15,168 nt of DNA from Candidatus Latescibacterota bacterium (GCA_016209865.1 JACQVL010000319.1:1-15168), one strand, 5' to 3'. Counted from the stretch's first letter, positions 4,982 to 15,168 are shown. The notes: generated by a model not told the origin, from the letters alone. Numbers and translations: made by a program.

Positions 4982-5743
4982 TCATCGCAATACCGCGAGT
5001 GAACCTCGTTCCCCCTCGATATTGCCGCACAGAACGTGCGGGACGATGACGGGGTCAGCCGAACGGCAAATCTCTTCGGCCAACCGCCGCCGGTGCGCGT
5101 CCCCGCACCACCCTAAGTACAGAATGGTTTTCGTCGCGACCGGAATCTTCCGGGCGTACGCTTGCGGATGGCTGACCACGCGCCCGATGACCTCGCAGGT
5201 GAGGGGTTGTCCTGGACGTAGCCCGGTGAGCGCCGTGACGCGTTCCGGCCGGTGGACGAACCGTTCGTCGAGAGGGAGGCCGACGCTGTGCAGGCCGACG
5301 ACGATGACGCAGTGCGTCGTCCAGACAGGCACGACCGGCTCATCCGCGCCCGGAGCCTTGAACGGCCTGGTCCGGGCGCCGTCCGCTTTGATCAACAGCA
5401 GAGCCGCCGGACAGACCGCGCGGAGGGTGTCGAGTGCGCCGAAGTCGAGGCCGCGCATTTTATCCGGCCGCACGCGGTCGCCGACGATCGTGAGATGAGG
5501 CTCCCTCGTCAGGCGCTCACGCAGCCGGGCGGACCAATCGGGGTCCTCGGCGGTCACCAGCATCCCGTTGGACTGCCGAGAAGTCGGCGGATGGAGATGG
5601 GTGCTGGAGGTGGTCATGACCGTGTCGCCCCGGCCGAGTCCCTCGGCGGCGAGATGGTACATCAGGGTGGCCTTGCCGCCGCTCCCGACGACCGAGACGA
5701 CATCCCCGCGATGAATACCGAACGTGTCGAGAAAGGAAAGCAT
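4982..5743 (-). CDS. yqeC: YqeC-like selenium-dependent hydroxylase accessory protein
   Basis: A 253-residue cytoplasmic protein that follows the YqeC family from end to end. It has an N-terminal phosphate-binding-loop-like VVGSGGKATL (18-27), MTTSSTHLHPP (43-53), the KADGARTRPFKAPGADEPVVP region (119-139), and GLPLDERFVHRPE (155-167). YqeC proteins are associated with selenium-dependent molybdenum hydroxylases; their exact reaction is unsettled. Two signature positions differ from what I expect: the loop normally reads GGKTT but Ala25 follows Lys24, and the usual acidic residue before ADG is Lys119 (codon AAA, one base from GAA). No molybdenum or selenium genes are nearby. The start directly follows an AT-rich heptad array and lacks a Shine-Dalgarno. 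Family assignment is good; activity is uncertain. Confidence 0.8.
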   Translation of the reverse strand: MLSFLDTFGIHRGDVVSVVGSGGKATLMYHLAAEGLGRGDTVMTTSSTHLHPPTSRQSNGMLVTAEDPDWSARLRERLTREPHLTIVGDRVRPDKMRGLDFGALDTLRAVCPAALLLIKADGARTRPFKAPGADEPVVPVWTTHCVIVVGLHSVGLPLDERFVHRPERVTALTGLRPGQPLTCEVIGRVVSHPQAYARKIPVATKTILYLGWCGDAHRRRLAEEICRSADPVIVPHVLCGNIEGERGSLAVLR

Positions 5744-5862: not shown

Positions 5863-7278
5863 TCACCACCGATACACCACCGTATACCCTACCCTGGCTT
5901 CACCATCTTTGGGGACGGGGACGTCGAACTCGATCGTCCACGCATCCCGTTTCCGGTACTCCTGGCTCGACTGTCTGATGTACCAGTCGTTCCTGCCCAG
6001 GTGCTCGACGACGGTGATCGTCACCGGGTTAGCAGTATGGTTGCGGAGGACGATGTCGAGGCTCTCTTCTCGCGACCGGTCGGACACCTGCCGGACGGTC
6101 GTCTGTTTCCGCTCGCCGGCCAGGTCGAACGCCGTCCCGACCGTCACCCGCGCCGTCTCGTCCTTCGCCAGGTCTTTCAGCCCATCCTCGCCTAAGAACT
6201 GGCGGCTGCCCGTCGCCCCCTCCTGGTACACCCGGACTTTCCCCCGTGGCAAGGGGAGGCCGAGTCCAGCCCGCTGGCTGTTCTCGAACTCGAAGCGGGT
6301 CTGCACCGCCGTGGGCATCCGCGCCCCGTCGTAGATGTACTGCTTCTTCGCTCTCACCTTCGTGTCGGCGAGCAGGGCAAGCTGGACGGTCTCGTTGTCC
6401 CCGACCCGCGCCCGCCGGTCGAGGGTGTAGGCATGGTACTCGAACAGCGGCTGTTCGTCAAACTGCTGGGCGATCTCTTCTCCGGCTAACACCCGCCCCA
6501 TCGTCCGCGCCATCCTGGCCGGCAGTCGCTCTGGCTCTGCCCGATTGACGTCCCCGGCCACGAGCGTCAGCGCGGCGTTCTCGTAGGTCGCCCCCGACCG
6601 GTTGTCGATCGACGCCCAGCCGGAGAGGGTCAATTCCGTTTCCTGAGCGCTCACGACGGCGGTGTACTCCGCATGCCAGGACATCCCGCCCGTCAGGTAG
6701 CTGACCTCGATGCGCTGCGGCCCGGCCGTCCCGGTGTTCTCGACCAGCCAGGCCAGGGCCGGACGGGTGACGAGTCCGCCGGGGAGGCCGGGGAGGCTCA
6801 CCCGCCGGACCGCGTCCCGCCGGATGAGGTCGATACTGCCGTTCTCCCGCATCAGCGTCAGGTCCCCGCCGAGGCCGAGCAGCCGGCCGCGGACGGGAGT
6901 TCCCGACCCCTCGACCTCGACTTCAACGTCCCGGTCGATGTACTTGCTCAGCAGTATCTCCGGGTTGATGAGGTCGTACGTGAACCGCTGTTCGAGGACG
7001 GCCACCCGGTCCGGGGCCGCCAGCGACCGGACCCGGACGGAGGTCGGGTCGATCTGCGCCGGCACCCCGGCCAGCGTCGCGGTCGTGCGTCCTTTCGCTA
7101 AGTCGAGCGTGCGCACCTCCCGGACGAGGCCGAGGTTGTTGGAGTAGACCGTAAGACCGACCTCCCGGTCCTGCGCCAGTCCGGCCGCGGGCGTGATCCA
7201 GGCTGAGAGCAGGCAGAGTAGAATCAGGGCGCACACAGCGCCTACATCATGTCTTTGGCGGTCTCGACCTGCTTCCAT
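5863..7278 (-). CDS. Secreted DUF4139-domain protein
   Basis: A 471-residue protein with a hydrophobic signal sequence (about 15-34, probable cleavage near GLA|QD at 35) and then a largely beta-rich body, starting with LTVYSNNLGLVREVRTLDL. This is the DUF4139 pattern: an N-terminal region followed by repeated beta elements ending in VGYTVVYRW. The family has no agreed function in bacteria; the sequence implies a periplasmic or surface location. The ATG at 7276-7278 lies inside the upstream gene (37-base overlap) and is preceded by AAGGGA at good spacing. A GTG at 7234-7236, just after the upstream stop, is an alternative that would still keep the signal sequence. The overlap implies co-translation with the small protein upstream. 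Confidence 0.8.
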   Translation of the reverse strand: MEAGRDRQRHDVGAVCALILLCLLSAWITPAAGLAQDREVGLTVYSNNLGLVREVRTLDLAKGRTTATLAGVPAQIDPTSVRVRSLAAPDRVAVLEQRFTYDLINPEILLSKYIDRDVEVEVEGSGTPVRGRLLGLGGDLTLMRENGSIDLIRRDAVRRVSLPGLPGGLVTRPALAWLVENTGTAGPQRIEVSYLTGGMSWHAEYTAVVSAQETELTLSGWASIDNRSGATYENAALTLVAGDVNRAEPERLPARMARTMGRVLAGEEIAQQFDEQPLFEYHAYTLDRRARVGDNETVQLALLADTKVRAKKQYIYDGARMPTAVQTRFEFENSQRAGLGLPLPRGKVRVYQEGATGSRQFLGEDGLKDLAKDETARVTVGTAFDLAGERKQTTVRQVSDRSREESLDIVLRNHTANPVTITVVEHLGRNDWYIRQSSQEYRKRDAWTIEFDVPVPKDGEARVGYTVVYRW

Positions 7279-9070: not shown

Positions 9071-9162
9071 AGGTCGAAGGACGAAGGTCGAAGGACGAAA
9101 ATAAAGACGAGTTGTTTTGTCCTTTTCGTCCTTTGTCCTTCGTCCTTTTCGTCCTTCATCCT
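9071..9162. terminator. Heptad-built stem-loop between convergent genes, likely bidirectional terminator
   Basis: The left arm (9071-9098) is AGGTCGA, AGGACGA, AGGTCGA, AGGACGA. The right arm (9115-9162) is a run of TTCGTCC-type units with some TTTTCGTCC variants. The arms are complementary over several units and would fold into a long hairpin in either transcript, in the 101 bases between the PLP enzyme stop and the rhomboid stop. The right arm abuts the rhomboid TAA. A terminator role is inferred from position and structure only. Confidence 0.6.
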
Positions 9163-9902
9163 TATACTTCCCACTCTCCCGCCGGGTTGATCCAGCGTCG
9201 TCGCGGGCGGGGGCGTTCGAAGTACCGGACGAGGAACATCCCGACGAGAAACCCCCCGATATGAGCATACCAGGCGACTCCCCCGCCGCCGCCCGCGCTG
9301 TTCAGCACCTGCATCAGAAACCACAGACCGAGCAGAATAACAGCCGGGATATGGATGATGCGGAAGAATATGAAAAAGAAGGGAAAGATGACGAGGGTTT
9401 TCACGTTCGCGCGGGGGAACAGGACGAAGTACGCCCCTAACACCCCCGCGATCGCCCCGCTCGCCCCGATCATCGGCACGGTCGAGTTCATGTCAGCCAA
9501 GACGTGCGCCAGGCTCGCGCCCAGGCCGGCGATCAGGTAAAACACGACGAACCGGACATGGCCCATCGCGTCCTCGATGTTATTCCCGAAGATCCAGAGG
9601 TAGAGCATGTTGCCCCCGGCGTGCATGAGGCCGCCGTGGACGAACATCGCGGAGAAGAGCGCCAGCGGAAAGGGGAGGAAGGCGGGCGGGTAGGCGTGGA
9701 GACTGCCGGGAATGGGAATCTCAGACCGGTCGATGAAATGCGTCACCTCGAACGGGATGGCGGCGGTGCGAAAAATAAACGCCTGCTCGGCCTCTGGACT
9801 CAGGACAAGCTGGAAGAGGAAGACGATCGCATTGAGGATGATCAGCCCGACCGTCACGACCGGCCGAGAGTACGTCGGATTATCGTCTTTGAGGGGAATC
9901 AT
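9162..9902 (-). CDS. Rhomboid-family intramembrane serine protease
   Basis: A 246-residue polytopic inner-membrane protein of about six segments. It contains MFVHGGLMHAGGNMLYLWIF (86-105) with the HxxxN oxyanion residues His94 and Asn98, MIGASGAIAGVLGAY (144-158) with nucleophile Ser148 in GASG, and HIGGFLVG with catalytic His214, so the Ser/His dyad is intact. Rhomboids cleave transmembrane substrates within or near the bilayer; the substrate here is unknown. The N terminus MIPLKDDNPTYSRPVVT is typical of bacterial members, which supports this start despite a weak Shine-Dalgarno. A strong promoter-like element lies about 110 bases upstream, so it is probably transcribed separately from the caspase/LPP20 cluster behind it. 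Proximity to that cluster may or may not be functional. Confidence 0.92.
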   Translation of the reverse strand: MIPLKDDNPTYSRPVVTVGLIILNAIVFLFQLVLSPEAEQAFIFRTAAIPFEVTHFIDRSEIPIPGSLHAYPPAFLPFPLALFSAMFVHGGLMHAGGNMLYLWIFGNNIEDAMGHVRFVVFYLIAGLGASLAHVLADMNSTVPMIGASGAIAGVLGAYFVLFPRANVKTLVIFPFFFIFFRIIHIPAVILLGLWFLMQVLNSAGGGGGVAWYAHIGGFLVGMFLVRYFERPRPRRRWINPAGEWEV

Positions 9903-9946: not shown

Positions 9947-9973
9947 TGGATTCCCGTTCGCACGGAAATGACA
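9947..9973 (+). repeat. REP-like hairpin repeat, copy A
   Basis: A 27-base element beginning TGGATTCCCG and ending GGAAATGACA, with an imperfect hairpin in the middle. It matches copies at 10697-10723 and 15116-15142, all in the same orientation. It sits in the predicted leader of the rhomboid gene, about 45 bases upstream of its start. Confidence 0.8.
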
Positions 9974-10046: not shown

Positions 10047-10616
10047 TCATCGGCGATTCTGCTCCTCCTGCTCCAGCTCCTGGAACGCTTTGTCCGCGTT
10101 CTCCTTGATCAACTCCTGCATCTCCCGGCTCAACTCCCGCATCTGCTCGACCTGATTCTTGAACGCGGTCACGTCGAGCATGGCGAGCGCGTACTCGGTC
10201 CGCTCTTTCTGGTCGTAGTACCGGTTGACGATCTGAGCACCCGACAACTCCATCGACGTGAACACTTTCGTCGCCTCTTGCGCGAACTGCTCCGGGCTTT
10301 CCCGGTTGTCCAGTCCCCCGCTGATCGACCGGGAATAGACTTTCACTAAGTTCTCGACCTTCGTCTTGAACACACGGGCGAGGTCCGCGCGCGCCTGCGC
10401 GTCCGCCACGTTGCGCCGTAGGCTGGGCGACGAGACGTTGCTCGCCGAGCCGACCGCATAGAACGCCTTTCCCTTGTCGCCTTTAAAGAACCCGGCGCCC
10501 TGATCGATCCATTTCGGACGGTCCTCGGTCGGCGTCAGTTGGCGACTCCCCCCGCAGCCCATCACGATGACCATCATGCCTGTTGCGACGAAGAGCCAGT
10601 TCATTCGGTGTCTCAT
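10047..10616 (-). CDS. LPP20-family outer-membrane-type lipoprotein
   Basis: A 189-residue protein with a lipoprotein signal ending VMGC (lipid-attached Cys21), then an LPP20-type domain: FYAVGSASNVSSPSLRRNVA (52-71) followed by a helical DAQARADLARVFKTKVENLV and, further on, a tyrosine-rich beta stretch NRYYDQKERTEYALAMLDV. The C terminus (about 152-189) is charged and helical, possibly a coiled coil. LPP20 proteins are small envelope lipoproteins; the family includes FlgP of flagellar outer-membrane rings. AAGGAGG upstream of the ATG strongly supports this start. Its stop is 11 bases from the rhomboid promoter. It lies 164 bases downstream of the caspase lipoprotein gene on the same strand and probably belongs to the same envelope system. 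Confidence 0.85.
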   Translation of the reverse strand: MRHRMNWLFVATGMMVIVMGCGGSRQLTPTEDRPKWIDQGAGFFKGDKGKAFYAVGSASNVSSPSLRRNVADAQARADLARVFKTKVENLVKVYSRSISGGLDNRESPEQFAQEATKVFTSMELSGAQIVNRYYDQKERTEYALAMLDVTAFKNQVEQMRELSREMQELIKENADKAFQELEQEEQNRR

Positions 10617-10636
10617 GGGGAACCTCCTTGGAAATC

Positions 10637-10671
10637 AGTGACGAGTGACAAGTGGCGAGTGACGAGCAAAA
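10637..10671. repeat. Heptad array AGTGACG, left arm
   Basis: Units AGTGACG, AGTGACA, AGTGGCG, AGTGACG and AGCAAAA, ending a few bases from the ribosome site of the LPP20 gene. It is inverted relative to the array at 10758-10778. Confidence 0.85.
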
Positions 10672-10696
10672 CAAGAAGTCGATCATTCAGCATGAC

Positions 10697-10723
10697 TGGA
10701 TTCCCGCTTTCACGGGCATGACA
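10697..10723 (+). repeat. REP-like hairpin repeat, copy B
   Basis: A 27-base copy with stem CCCG-CTTTCA-CGGG, beginning TGGATTCCCG and ending GGCATGACA. It lies between the two inverted heptad arrays of the same spacer, 80 bases upstream of the LPP20 start. Confidence 0.85.
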
Positions 10724-10757
10724 ACCTTCTGCACCGATCTTGCAGAGCGTTGGTATT

Positions 10758-10778
10758 ACTCGTCACTCGTCACTGCTC
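10758..10778. repeat. Heptad array ACTCGTC, right arm
   Basis: Two perfect ACTCGTC units and a variant ACTGCTC, the inverse complement of the array at 10637-10671. It ends two bases before the stop codon of the caspase gene, so it could form part of that gene's 3' transcript end. Confidence 0.8.
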
Positions 10779-10780
10779 TT

Positions 10781-13078
10781 TTAATACCTCACCAACACCC
10801 GGTCGACATCGTCGCCCTGGAGTTCGGGCGTCTGTTCCCGGTCGAGCCGGCCCGCCTGCTCTGTGACGTGCTCCCGGACGTACGCGTACAACTCCCGCAC
10901 GGTGATCGTGCTATCCTCGTCCTTGTCTGCGTCCCCTTTGAGACCTTTCAGGAGGAAATAGGTGAACACCCCGTGGGATTTCTCCGGATAGCTGGAGCTC
11001 ACCTGATTCCCGCTGGAGGCGGTCAGGACGATCACCCGGCCGCCCAGCTCCACCCGTCGCGGCTCGACCGCGATGCCGCGCGCGCCCGCTAACAGGAGCT
11101 CGACCTGATCCCCCCGGCCGACGCGCCCGCTAAAACAGGCATCTAAGATGACGGTCACCTGCCGGGCGGGAAGCTGGTTCAGGTTCCGGTACAACTCGTC
11201 CAGCCGGTAATTCGTGGGGGTATAGTTCGGGTCCCCGTCGGACGGGACGAGGTAGGCGTCGCGTGTCGTCAGGTCCGGCACCCCGTGGCCGATGTAGTAG
11301 ATGAACACCTCCGTCTGCTCCGGCTTGATCCGCTTGGCTAACCATCCCTGCTCCGGGTCGAATACCTTCCGGAACTCCCCCTGCGTGGCGTCCCGGTCCA
11401 TCCGGACGTAGATGTTGCTCTCTTTCAACCCCAGCGTCCGGATGAAGTATTCCCGTACGACGGTCGCGTCGTGCCGGGCGTACGGGACGGCTGGGGCGTA
11501 CCGGTAATCCTCGATGCCCAAGATCACGCCGAGGGCATCCGGCCGCTGGGTTTTCGACGAGACGACCTCGTCCACGTCGACGACCGGCAACGACGTCGAG
11601 CTAACGTCCGGCCGATCCCGCCGGGACTTCGCCGGGGCGGCCACGATGCGGCTCTTCCCGGAAGCCAGGGCCAGGCTGAGAGACACTGACTCCCCCGCTC
11701 GCATCACCTCGACCGCCAGCTCTCCCCCTTGCCTGGTCGTCTCGATCACCTCCTGTTCCAGTTCGCTCATCGTGCTCATCGCTTTCCGGTTCACCCGGAC
11801 GATGATATCCCCCTTCCGGAGGCCTAATCGTTCGGCGACCGTGCCGTCGAGGATGCTGGCGACAAGCAGTCCTAAGCTGGTTTCTTCGACCTTCGCGCCT
11901 AAGGAGGCGGTCTGTTTCTGGAGGGCCCCGATCACCTGCGTCAACGAGGCCAGGTTCAGCCGGTACAGCCGCTCAGAGGACTTCAGCTCGACCGCCTTCT
12001 GGTACGCCTGTTTCGCCTCGGTGTACTGTCCGGCGTGTTCGTAGAAAACCCCTAAGTTATTCCACACCGCCGCGCTCTCCGGCTTCCGTTCGAGCGCCCG
12101 GCGCCATTCCCGTCCCGCCTGATCCCACTGGCCGTTGCGGGCGAATTTGACCCCGGTCTTCGTCTCCTTATCCGTCTTCAGCCGCCGGACGACGCTGACC
12201 TGGCGCGGGGAGACCTGGTCGGCCAGCTCGCGGGCCACCTCGGCGGAGAGACTCTGGAGGAGCTCGGACCGGTCCGGGATCGTCGCGCTCAGACGCTGCT
12301 CGACGGTCATCACCGCCACCGATGCGATGAGAGTCGCCAGGAGCTTGACACCCCAGGAGGCGGCTGACTCCCCGGACATCGTCAGGTCGGGCGGCTCGTC
12401 GGAAAACACGAGCTTCCGGCGGGTGACCCGGCGGGAGGCGCTCCGGGAGGCGAGGATGTTGCCCGTCGCCGCCTCGACGAACCGGAGGTTGACGGAGACG
12501 AACCCGCTCCGGTTGAGGAACCGCTCGGTGTAGGCGACGTGCTTGTAGACCGGCACCTGCTTCTGCTTCGGCACCCGTTTGACGACGTTCACCTTTTTCG
12601 TCTTCTCGACCCACTTACCCCCTTCTTTCACGCGGACTTTGGCGATCTCCTGGACGGTCCGGGATTCATACTCGGTGACGGTATCGTACCGGACGAGCAC
12701 CCGTTTGGAATTGCTCTGCATCGTGTAGTCATCGTCGACGCCGCCGTCCACGTCCCCGTCGATGACCGCGTCCACGCCGAGCATCCGACCGGCTTCGGCG
12801 ATGTCCTGGATCGCGCCCCCGGCCAAGCGAGTCGAGGCCCGGTCGGGCTGGACGACGGTGAAGTACTGGTGCCGCATCAGACTCTGAACGAGCAGCGACC
12901 CGACCTTCGTGCTGACTGCGTCGTCCTGGGATTTCAGTCCGATGAACGCGATCGTCCTGACCTGGGAAACGTCGAAATCCGGCGGCTGGTAGGCTAAGAA
13001 GGAGATCGTCTTCGGCCCGGCGCACCCGGCGAGGCCTATCAAACCGATCACGATGGCGATGACATAGGGGCGAAGCAT
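10781..13078 (-). CDS. Caspase-family lipoprotein with CsgG-like, TPR and PDZ domains
   Basis: A 765-residue lipoprotein. The signal ends LAGC (lipid-attached Cys19). Residues about 35-290 resemble a CsgG/FlgO-type fold: VRTIAFIGL, RMLGVDAVIDGDV and VNLRFVEAATGNILASRSAS, with a Lys/Val-rich insertion at 147-180. Two TPRs follow (about 305-366), then a PDZ domain (about 398-470, GLLV, LGLRKGDIIVRVN), a linker, and a caspase-like domain (about 511-740): LGVILGIEDYR, FIYYIGHG with catalytic His598, and VILDACFSG with catalytic Cys648. An EF-hand-like loop D718-x-D720-x-D722-S-x-I725-x-x-x-E729 lies near its end. The complete dyad predicts Arg/Lys-type proteolysis as in metacaspases, in the periplasm. 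The start at 13076-13078 has GGAGAGG just upstream and gives the lipobox; an in-frame ATG at 13162 would bury it. Confidence 0.9.
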   Translation of the reverse strand: MLRPYVIAIVIGLIGLAGCAGPKTISFLAYQPPDFDVSQVRTIAFIGLKSQDDAVSTKVGSLLVQSLMRHQYFTVVQPDRASTRLAGGAIQDIAEAGRMLGVDAVIDGDVDGGVDDDYTMQSNSKRVLVRYDTVTEYESRTVQEIAKVRVKEGGKWVEKTKKVNVVKRVPKQKQVPVYKHVAYTERFLNRSGFVSVNLRFVEAATGNILASRSASRRVTRRKLVFSDEPPDLTMSGESAASWGVKLLATLIASVAVMTVEQRLSATIPDRSELLQSLSAEVARELADQVSPRQVSVVRRLKTDKETKTGVKFARNGQWDQAGREWRRALERKPESAAVWNNLGVFYEHAGQYTEAKQAYQKAVELKSSERLYRLNLASLTQVIGALQKQTASLGAKVEETSLGLLVASILDGTVAERLGLRKGDIIVRVNRKAMSTMSELEQEVIETTRQGGELAVEVMRAGESVSLSLALASGKSRIVAAPAKSRRDRPDVSSTSLPVVDVDEVVSSKTQRPDALGVILGIEDYRYAPAVPYARHDATVVREYFIRTLGLKESNIYVRMDRDATQGEFRKVFDPEQGWLAKRIKPEQTEVFIYYIGHGVPDLTTRDAYLVPSDGDPNYTPTNYRLDELYRNLNQLPARQVTVILDACFSGRVGRGDQVELLLAGARGIAVEPRRVELGGRVIVLTASSGNQVSSSYPEKSHGVFTYFLLKGLKGDADKDEDSTITVRELYAYVREHVTEQAGRLDREQTPELQGDDVDRVLVRY

Positions 13079-13081
13079 GTG

Positions 13082-13088
13082 CCTCTCC
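13082..13088 (-). promoter_or_regulatory. Shine-Dalgarno deciding the caspase lipoprotein start
   Basis: GGAGAGG on the minus strand, with its GGAG core six bases upstream of the ATG at 13078. It selects this start over the in-frame ATG at 13162, which would add 28 residues in front of a good lipoprotein signal. Confidence 0.75.
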
Positions 13089-13163
13089 GATGGTAACGCC
13101 CGATTCTGGAGATCAGCACATGCTTCACCCCTACACCGATTATTTTTCCACGGTCGTTTCATT

Positions 13164-13198
13164 CCCCGAACCCCGAATCCCTAACCCCGAACCCCTGT
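13164..13198. repeat. Heptad array CCCCGAA
   Basis: Units CCCCGAA, CCCCGAA, TCCCTAA, CCCCGAA, CCCCTGT, in the 130-base spacer between the DUF4384 gene and the caspase gene, ending ten bases before the DUF4384 stop codon. No inverted partner array is present. The third unit is a CTAA variant, as at 5823-5855. Confidence 0.85.
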
Positions 13199-13208
13199 TC
13201 TTTCGCCC

Positions 13209-15116
13209 TTACTGCCCCGTGGTCGTAATCCGGATGGCCGCCTGGCCGAATAGGTCGGGACGCGCTCCTGTCGTCAGGCGCTGGATCGTGTTTCTCACCG
13301 TCCCGGACAGCAGCACCCCGCCACTGACCTCCCGGCCGTCGAGGCGGGGGAAGGGGGTGGTGCTGGCGAGGGCGATGAGCTGCTCGACCCCGAACGGCGG
13401 CCGGACGACCAGGTCGAACGCATCATCCGGGCCGGGGATGGTGTACACCTGTCCGGCGGCTACCCGGTCATCCCCCTTCAGCCGGTTGGGGAAGATTTGC
13501 AGCGTGTGGCCATCCGCCTGGCGGTAGAACAGCCGGAGACGGCAGTCGGCCCCCGCGCGAACGTAGACGGTCAGCCGTTCCCCCTCGGCGTACAGCCCAC
13601 CGTCCCCCCGGTCTGTCCACACGACGAGCGGGAGGCCGTGAGCAGAAGGCGGAAGATCGTCCGGGATCACCGGCGGCCGGAGGTCGTACGGGATCGTCCG
13701 CCTCGGGATGACCACGCTGGCGGAGGCGAGCCGTACCCCGTCCGTCCCGGTGACGCGCGCGTTGACGATGACGCTGTCCCCCCGTTCCCAGTAATCCCCC
13801 CAGATGACCGCGTCCGCCCGCACCGCCCGGGCGATCGTCTCCGCCGCGTTCGGGTCGCCGAAGTCGGCGAAACGGGCCGACCGGTCGATGCGTTCGACCA
13901 GACGAACCCGGCCGGCGCCGGCTAAGGCGGCGTTGAGGGACCGGCGGAGCGGGCCGGTAAACGGCCCGGCGATACGGGTATCCTGGTAGGTAAACCGGTC
14001 GACGACGACGGCGGTCTCCGGACGGAGCGTCCGGCTGAGCCGGCAGGCGAGTTCACCCAGGCCATCCTCCAGTCCGAGGGTCCCGGGCAACAGGACGAGC
14101 CGGCCGCTTAGACTGCCCAATCGCTCGACCCATCGGCCAGTCTGGGCTCCGGGCGCCTGTGCCCGAACGGCCGCGGTGTCGATCACAGCCATGACGACGC
14201 ACGCCGCTTCGCCGCACGTCCCGGCCTGAGAGACGGTGGCGGACACCGTCCCGTCCCTCGCCGTGACGCCCGGGCTTTCCAGGCGGCCGGTTCCCTGGGC
14301 GATCAGAAATCTGACGGGGAACCCGGCGGCCGGGACGGGCGCGCCGGACGGGGCGAGGGTGAGCCGGACGGTCAGCCGGTCCGGCACCCGTCCCTCCTCG
14401 ATGCGCTGCTGGTCTCCCGCGACAGGACTGAAGGCGAGGCTTGAGACAAGCCGCCCGATCGTCCGTTCGATGTCCATCACCGTCGGACTAAACGCAGACG
14501 AGCGTGCTTCCGTGTCGAGCAACGCCTCCACCTGATCCCCCACGAGCGCCCGGTACAGCCCTTCATCGGCTTCCGCGCCGGCCCGGTCATCAGCCGCCTG
14601 GGCGTACGCTAAGAACCCCCGGTACGTCTCCCCCGCCGCCAGGTCGCGGTCGCCCTGGGCGATGTAGGTCGCCGCCCGCTGCGCCACCACCCGGAGCTTC
14701 TCAGCGACCCGTTCCGCCGCCGCCTGCCGATCGAGCAGGGCGAGCGAATAATACGTCCTGGCCTTCTTATGGTACCATCGATCTTTGATGACCACCCCGT
14801 CTAAGGTAAGCGACACCGAGGTCTCGACGGTCTCTTCGATGTCGTGCGTGACCGTTGGACGGGTCGTCGACCCGCGTTCCGCTTCTTTGGCCGTCAGCCG
14901 GGCGGTCACGGTGACCCGAATCTGTTTGGCGATCTCCGCGCGGGCCAGGTCGTCCGCCCGCTGCCGGTCGCGATCACGGTTCCCGGTCGACTGCGCGATG
15001 CCCACGCCCTGAATAAAGAGACTGTTCGTGGCGTTCGGATGTTTCACCCAGCCAGGCTGGGCGGCGGCCGGAGGAACGGCCAGGCAGAGGGCGAGGGCCA
15101 CGATACTCAGCATCAT
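13209..15116 (-). CDS. Secreted LPP20-like / Big-1-like / CsgG-like / DUF4384 protein
   Basis: A protein of 635 residues from the ATG at 15116. A hydrophobic signal ends AAAQ (likely cut after Ala19). An LPP20-type segment follows (about 33-130): FIQGVGIAQSTGNRDRDRQR, then alanine-rich helix and a YYSLALLD strand. A Big-1-like Ig domain spans about 245-315 with Cys301 and Cys306. A CsgG-like segment follows (about 367-470): AVVVDRFTYQDTR, LVERI, AVRADAVIWGDYW. A DUF4384 domain closes it (about 496-590): LYAEGERLTVYVRAGADCRL, QIFPNRLKGDDRVAAG, PPFGVEQLIALAS. The probable location is periplasm or outer membrane. DUF4384 commonly occurs with caspase proteins, which fits the next gene. The same frame is open to an ATG at 15167, adding a basic stretch encoded by REP copy C; from 15116 the signal lacks basic residues, so the longer start is a real alternative. 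Confidence 0.8.
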   Translation of the reverse strand: MMLSIVALALCLAVPPAAAQPGWVKHPNATNSLFIQGVGIAQSTGNRDRDRQRADDLARAEIAKQIRVTVTARLTAKEAERGSTTRPTVTHDIEETVETSVSLTLDGVVIKDRWYHKKARTYYSLALLDRQAAAERVAEKLRVVAQRAATYIAQGDRDLAAGETYRGFLAYAQAADDRAGAEADEGLYRALVGDQVEALLDTEARSSAFSPTVMDIERTIGRLVSSLAFSPVAGDQQRIEEGRVPDRLTVRLTLAPSGAPVPAAGFPVRFLIAQGTGRLESPGVTARDGTVSATVSQAGTCGEAACVVMAVIDTAAVRAQAPGAQTGRWVERLGSLSGRLVLLPGTLGLEDGLGELACRLSRTLRPETAVVVDRFTYQDTRIAGPFTGPLRRSLNAALAGAGRVRLVERIDRSARFADFGDPNAAETIARAVRADAVIWGDYWERGDSVIVNARVTGTDGVRLASASVVIPRRTIPYDLRPPVIPDDLPPSAHGLPLVVWTDRGDGGLYAEGERLTVYVRAGADCRLRLFYRQADGHTLQIFPNRLKGDDRVAAGQVYTIPGPDDAFDLVVRPPFGVEQLIALASTTPFPRLDGREVSGGVLLSGTVRNTIQRLTTGARPDLFGQAAIRITTTGQ

Positions 15117-15142
15117 GGATTCCCGCTTGCGCGGGAATGACA
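15116..15142 (+). repeat. REP-like hairpin repeat, copy C, overlapping the DUF4384 gene start
   Basis: A 27-base copy with a perfect CCCGC-TT-GCGGG-type stem. It starts at the first base of the minus-strand ATG at 15116 and covers the position of that gene's ribosome site. Read on the minus strand in frame it encodes the well-known repeat peptide SFPRKRES. Confidence 0.85.
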
Positions 15143-15168
15143 ACCCTTTCTTCTGCGTTATTCTCATA

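Follow-up and report, generated by a model that had tools for sequence, protein, structure and literature searches.

A lipid-anchored caspase paired with a DUF4384 protein: a candidate envelope protease cassette in a Latescibacterota bacterium

Bacterial orthocaspases and metacaspases, including the WD40-caspases, are recognized by a p20 domain with a His-Cys dyad, an Asp two residues before the Cys, and fusion to interaction repeats. A 2012 survey of 671 bacterial metacaspases found WD40 and TPR to be their commonest partners, in varied operons and with N-terminal helices that are possibly signal peptides; PDZ, CsgG and DUF4384 go unmentioned in its text (PMC3501461). Known orthocaspases cleave after Arg or Lys (PMC6426788), and DUF4384 fusions are on record in cyanobacterial and alphaproteobacterial members (PMC6426788, PMC8283722, PMC7475262). 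Here we describe a locus from a Candidatus Latescibacterota bacterium (GCA_016209865.1, JACQVL010000319.1:1-15168), contained in a stretch of 15,168 nucleotides, hereafter the window, which is the entire contig C283 of a 3.75 Mb draft genome. It encodes a protein with the same orthocaspase hallmarks; however, its caspase domain sits on a lipoprotein with CsgG-like, TPR and PDZ domains, and DUF4384 belongs to a separate neighbouring gene. This protein adds a new architecture to a known protease family; its DUF4384 link seems not to have been described as a two-gene system, and in the literature searched, which is part of the whole literature, we found no paper linking LPP20 or CsgG with a bacterial caspase. 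The functional unit would be a two-gene cassette encoding an orthocaspase with a lipid anchor and, as its partner, an exported DUF4384 protein; together they would act as an outer-membrane-tethered, partner-regulated envelope protease with Arg/Lys specificity, a proposal drawn from sequence that we consider evenly poised between right and wrong.

Several envelope systems provide further points of comparison. In Pseudomonas aeruginosa, LbcA and CtpA bring together a TPR outer-membrane lipoprotein and a PDZ protease acting on envelope proteins (PMC8764530). The window's lipoprotein likewise combines lipid anchor, TPR, PDZ and protease, but this is an analogy only, as CtpA is a serine protease whose adaptor is a separate protein, whereas in the window a caspase is fused to the adaptor. 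The nearest relatives of the window's PDZ domain belong to HtrA, DegP and DegS, which serve periplasmic quality control; their catalytic domain is a trypsin-like serine protease rather than a cysteine caspase. The curli channel CsgG and CsgG-like lipoproteins share the combination of a lipoprotein with a CsgG-like core, although the window protein carries a charged insert in place of the membrane hairpin, added TPR, PDZ and caspase domains, and no curli genes alongside. Finally, the flagellar ring proteins FlgP, FlgT and FlgO, together with LPP20 (for the fold relation, see PMC12222027), resemble the LPP20/SHS2-type and FlgO-like domains of the partner protein; the window locus, in contrast, is not a flagellar cluster and adds DUF4384.

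The window proteins were scanned against Pfam with curated cut-offs and against the NCBIfam models. An initial annotation of the sequence had placed three envelope genes on one strand at 10047-15116, and all three are present there as real reading frames on the minus strand. The partner and caspase genes, with their parts, are as follows.

13209-15116, minus strand: exported partner protein, 635 amino acids, with Sec signal peptide, LPP20 (SHS2-type) domain, middle region, CsgG/FlgO-like domain and DUF4384 (Pfam; orthologues; alignment)
14730-15056, minus strand: LPP20 domain of the partner (Pfam, E = 1.3e-7)
13701-14054, minus strand: CsgG/FlgO-like domain of the partner, limits approximate (FlgO, E = 0.008; alignment with CsgG-positive proteins)
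13353-13592, minus strand: DUF4384 domain of the partner (Pfam, E = 2.3e-21)
10781-13078, minus strand: caspase lipoprotein, 765 amino acids counted from Met29 (frame analysis, Pfam, lipobox, orthologue alignment)
12194-12991, minus strand: CsgG-like N-terminal domain of the caspase lipoprotein, limits approximate (Pfam, intermediates, profile comparisons)
12509-12709, minus strand: charged insert where CsgG has its first transmembrane hairpin (alignment comparison)
11978-12145, minus strand: TPR repeats (Pfam)
11669-11905, minus strand: PDZ domain of HtrA/DegP type (Pfam PDZ_2, NCBIfam HtrA/DegP models, DegP chains in PDB)
10814-11527, minus strand: caspase (Peptidase_C14) domain (Pfam, alignments)
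11285-11287, minus strand: His598, in the motif YIGHG
11135-11137, minus strand: Cys648, in the motif LDACFSG

The longest frame of the caspase gene starts at 13162, and the Met29 start at 13078 places the lipobox, LAGC, correctly, ending at Cys19. With this start the residue numbering of the initial annotation, His598 and Cys648, is right, and the exported, lipid-anchored caspase with TPR and PDZ that it had predicted is supported by the Pfam matches, the lipobox and the intact dyad. The Peptidase_C14 match has E = 4.9e-17 (PF00656, 62.8 bits against a cut-off of 21.4); the NCBIfam model caspase_w_EACC1 also matches, at 82.6 bits, under its subfamily cut-off of 140. The Asp of the DxC active site is visible in the sequence, the GHG and DACFSG motifs are retained with both catalytic residues in the aligned orthologue, and the dyad is kept in the window, in the related genome G013 and in 29 of 29 aligned caspase domains. 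We infer that the protease is active and cleaves after Arg or Lys. The caspase domain has no PDB match by sequence. Elsewhere in the protein, TPR_16 (E = 4e-10), DUF6340 (E = 1.7e-8) and PDZ_2 (E = 5e-10) match in Pfam; only the PDZ part matches the HtrA family, and neither Pfam nor NCBIfam finds the trypsin-like catalytic domain of HtrA in the lipoprotein.

The partner gene has an ATG at 15167, which falls within a repetitive extragenic palindrome (REP)-like repeat; the sensible start is at 15116. For the secreted LPP20/CsgG-like/DUF4384 protein that the initial annotation had described, the Sec signal, LPP20 and DUF4384 stand, and the CsgG-like part is weak (the FlgO match lies below its cut-off in Pfam) and is helped by intermediates. 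Its orthologues in G013 and G001 range from 49 to 54% identity as aligned. Neither the DUF4384 protein nor its LPP20 domain has a PDB match by sequence; the N-domains of short DUF4384 partners in other genomes match FlgP-family lipoproteins in PDB at E = 0.008-0.09.

Comparison of the locus across 16 genomes of the phylum brings in the following neighbouring features.

10047-10616, minus strand: LPP20 lipoprotein, 189 amino acids, a neighbour outside the conserved unit (Pfam; locus comparison)
9162-9902, minus strand: membrane protein of the rhomboid family that borders the cassette site on the right in the order (Pfam; locus comparison)
15118-15139, no strand: REP-like palindrome upstream of the partner gene (repeat analysis)
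10699-10720, no strand: REP-like palindrome inside a nested inverted repeat (10636-10775), between the caspase and LPP20 genes (repeat analysis)
9949-9969: REP-like palindrome (repeat analysis)

The caspase lipoprotein is present in three of the 16 genomes, always directly after the DUF4384 gene, and the pair is adjacent on one strand in three families/genera (G000; G001, 54-55%, 20 bp apart; G013, 49-59%). The gene order uvrB, DUF4384, caspase is common to G001 and G013, and the order caspase, rhomboid to G013 and the window, with the LPP20 gene intervening in the latter. In G003 (genus g3, L129), uvrB is followed directly by rhomboid and YqeC; as the site is empty there, the two genes appear to form a cassette gained or lost as a unit. 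In G011 a DUF4384 gene stops at the contig edge, and no caspase was found in that genome. The initial annotation had envisaged a conserved three-gene cluster, and its proposed co-occurrence holds for the DUF4384-caspase pair in all three carriers. The three-gene version was rejected: the LPP20 gene is absent from the locus in G013 and lies on a separate contig in G001, beside other LPP20-type genes. Since relatives do not keep it next to the pair, and REP-like palindromes separate it from the pair here, it falls outside the conserved unit. The palindromes, of the form ATTCCCGC-N4-GCGGGAAT, give five strand matches in the window against 0.08 expected and bracket both the DUF4384-caspase pair and the LPP20 gene. 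The latter's domain is marginal in Pfam (26.9 bits, cut-off 25.9), and its translation contains a VMGC lipobox. In G001 (L057, 1114-4218) the LPP20 orthologue has as neighbours two further lipoproteins of LPP20-like type and a gene with a divergent LPP20 domain.

The same separation of the LPP20 gene is what favours one alternative, namely, that three unrelated envelope genes have become neighbours by chance. Against it, three families/genera retain partner and caspase together, both are missing jointly from that site elsewhere, and DUF4384-caspase linkage is far above chance more widely. Chance is thus disfavoured for the partner and caspase genes, and as an account of the locus it is highly improbable. 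The wider linkage was assessed by mapping the DUF4384, caspase, CHAT, LPP20 and CsgG families in 80 DUF4384-carrying genomes, with a linkage distance of 6 kb and expected counts that assume uniform placement; the family search missed the cassette caspases of G013 and G001, which were added by hand, so that the counts are minimum values. At least 22 genomes, at least 19 of them outside the order, have a caspase no more than 6 kb from DUF4384, against 0.9 expected, and eight have CHAT as close, against 0.8 expected. Among the 30 genomes outside the order that hold both DUF4384 and caspase, 19 contain a linked pair, where 0.85 would be expected; in 21 families a caspase or CHAT gene lies on the strand of DUF4384 and at most 3.5 kb from it. 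The linked loci that were inspected are mostly separate adjacent genes, often both with export signals, and some are fusions. LPP20 near DUF4384 (three outside genomes), CsgG near DUF4384 (five genomes) and CsgG near CHAT (three) are rarer but above chance.

CHAT takes the place of the caspase in G109, G138 and G221. The clearest parallel, judged from sequence, is in G109, a member of a distant phylum, where lipoproteins of the CsgG-DUF4384, TPR-CHAT and CsgG-TPR/FlgT_C types stand in a row (L073, 6116-11961) with a further CsgG/FlgO protein behind; the window's parts would here occur in trans with another clan-CD peptidase. In G241 (L107, 5649-12767) a caspase fused to a ricin-type lectin has DUF4384 as its neighbour; an LPP20 lipoprotein and two CsgG genes follow further along, and the whole group fits into about 13 kb.

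Several LPP20-type exported proteins precede an exported TPR-CHAT protease in G068 (L065, 4690-13012). G275 (L114, 8375-15353) has two near-identical ankyrin-caspase genes and an early-ending third caspase frame beside a DUF4384 gene, which points to recent duplication and decay. Three exported caspase genes cluster in G248 (L118, 5107-8988), two of them near-identical and one of these fused to DUF4384.

A clan-CD peptidase beside one recurrent partner, with caspase and CHAT interchangeable, also characterizes gasdermin-protease pairs in genomes, where a caspase-like or CHAT protease cleaves the bacterial gasdermin whose gene lies next to its own (PMC9612521). The TPR-CHAT and gasdermin-associated proteases thus share with the window a dedicated partner gene, and the cassette might by analogy serve self-killing or defence, the caspase cutting the DUF4384 partner (or the LPP20 protein) and so releasing gasdermin-like envelope damage. 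Unlike in those pairs, the window partner is an exported DUF4384 protein and not a gasdermin, and both proteins carry export signals and would not meet phage in the cytoplasm. Neither the partner nor its neighbours have a Pfam match to a gasdermin or any other pore-forming or toxin family, and the partner's domains are of structural type (FlgP/CsgG/LPP20). The flanks are housekeeping genes (uvrB, rhomboid, YqeC) with no defence genes among them. PADLOC returned only a generic caspase model and one weak match (E = 0.01), on which ground an antiphage system was rejected. Self-killing or defence is, in sum, unlikely, and envelope quality control is favoured over programmed death.

The CsgG-like domains raise a different possibility. 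In the caspase lipoprotein, the CsgG match in Pfam reaches 22.2 bits (cut-off 20.8) across 32 residues only. The CsgG-like labels, weak from the window alone, are strengthened by intermediates: a 419-amino acid lipoprotein of G109 (CsgG, E = 5e-18) aligns along the whole N-domain and TPRs of the caspase lipoprotein, another G109 protein matches CsgG at E = 2e-7, and CsgG-positive proteins of G109 (L073) and G221 (L111) align with the middle of the partner protein. CsgG chains are the only PDB sequences near the N-domain profile, at E of about 1 (0.93), and the overlap, a strand-turn-strand after the first membrane hairpin, has an hhalign probability of 36% over 25 columns. A CsgG-type secretion channel with a built-in processing protease, in which the lipoprotein forms the pore and the caspase trims outgoing cargo, would fit the CsgG-like N-domain, the lipoprotein signal and the position of the insert where the membrane hairpin of CsgG sits. 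The insert, however, is much longer than that hairpin and about 30-35% charged in the window and orthologues, against 18% in the compared stretch of E. coli CsgG. With the transmembrane hairpin so replaced, the sequence points away from a CsgG-type channel. Nor are there curli-type accessory or cargo genes in the window or at the G013 and G001 loci, csgE/F-like and curlin-like genes included, and the CsgG match is itself weak; we accept a CsgG-like core, though not a CsgG-type pore, and regard the secretion channel as very unlikely.

What the locus offers by direct observation is its gene anatomy, the intact dyad, the export signals, the conserved pair and the recurrent linkage of DUF4384 with caspase and CHAT; the outer-membrane location, PDZ gating, the partner's role and the quality-control purpose are inferred. 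In the mechanism that we favour, the caspase protein would be exported, lipidated on Cys19 and held at the inner face of the outer membrane, the location expected because the residue after the lipidated Cys19 is not Asp. Docking and the formation of rings or oligomers would be handled by the CsgG-like domain and TPRs of this protein and, in the partner, by the LPP20 and CsgG-like domains; the presence of the ring-forming FlgP and FlgT in the LPP20 and CsgG-like families (PMC12222027) suggests that the two proteins build an oligomeric platform together. The PDZ domain may bind exposed C-termini or misfolded ends and thereby gate the protease, whereupon the caspase domain would cut selected envelope proteins after Arg or Lys, by the limited proteolysis that caspase chemistry implies. 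The partner would be a regulator or assembly platform, a role as substrate being less likely. The whole could work like LbcA-CtpA, except that catalysis would fall to a caspase and that caspase and adaptor form one protein.

Several observations weigh against this proposal. Within the window the match to CsgG is weak, and the exact architecture is known from three carriers only, all of them draft genomes. AlphaFold models of the partner and the caspase lipoprotein from two-row alignments are uninformative on their folds, with mean predicted local distance difference test scores of 38 and 34. When profiles were compared directly, the LPP20 domain of the window showed no relation to the short partners' N-domain, and direct homology of the two was set aside; 'same partner type' accordingly refers to DUF4384 and Pfam families only. 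Furthermore, by one simple rule in the same genomes, caspases far from DUF4384 are exported in 27 of 46 cases, compared with 15 of 22 for those linked to it. Export as a special mark of DUF4384-linked caspases was rejected on these figures, and similar rates indicate a general trait of caspases in these bacteria, not one special to the window locus.

The HtrA-type PDZ domain and the rhomboid-family gene near the caspase in the window and G013 also recall a regulatory sensor, in which the caspase would cleave an envelope signalling protein (an anti-sigma factor or the substrate of the rhomboid) and start a cascade like that of DegS/RseP. But rhomboid is found in 15 of the 16 phylum genomes, at least 11 of them without the cassette; since it occurs with or without the pair, it was rejected as a dedicated third partner. 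No sigma or anti-sigma gene is seen in the window, and we judge such a sensor to be rather unlikely.

In all 16 genomes of the order, a profile of the CsgG-TPR half of the caspase lipoprotein finds a lipoprotein of 330-360 amino acids that has neither PDZ nor caspase; it adjoins cytochrome b/Rieske genes in the window's own genome, and a cytochrome-b-like neighbour recurs in G013 and G001. The caspase domain is nearest (about 66%) to WD40-caspases of G001 and G013, with which it forms one clade (support 100/99), and the G013 WD40-caspase carries a signal peptide. From this similarity and distribution, the simplest history would be duplication of the CsgG-TPR lipoprotein followed by its fusion to PDZ and to an exported caspase domain already present in the order.

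Beyond the cassette, the rhomboid (9162-9902), a DUF4139/DUF4140 protein (5863-7278) and YqeC (4982-5743) are syntenic between the window and G013. A membrane protein resembling a PMT-type glycosyltransferase (1256-2722) overlaps a long frame (87-2261) whose C-terminal part resembles an SGNH-type hydrolase. A scan of the window found no RNA elements.

Taken more broadly, exported clan-CD peptidases (caspase or CHAT) with DUF4384, LPP20 or CsgG-like partners may constitute an envelope protease system that is widespread, occurring in more than 20 bacterial families, and has so far gone undescribed. The window would then hold a derived form, its caspase fused to a CsgG-TPR-PDZ outer-membrane lipoprotein, with envelope proteins under the surveillance of a caspase instead of a serine protease; this we advance tentatively, at somewhat less than even confidence. 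In phyla far apart, the partner genes are found together with those of caspase and CHAT proteases, and DUF4384, which has no assigned function in the literature searched, gains its first strong genomic context. Work on bacterial caspases has centred on cytoplasmic death and defence; an envelope-tied caspase would provide a testable handle on another role, envelope surveillance.

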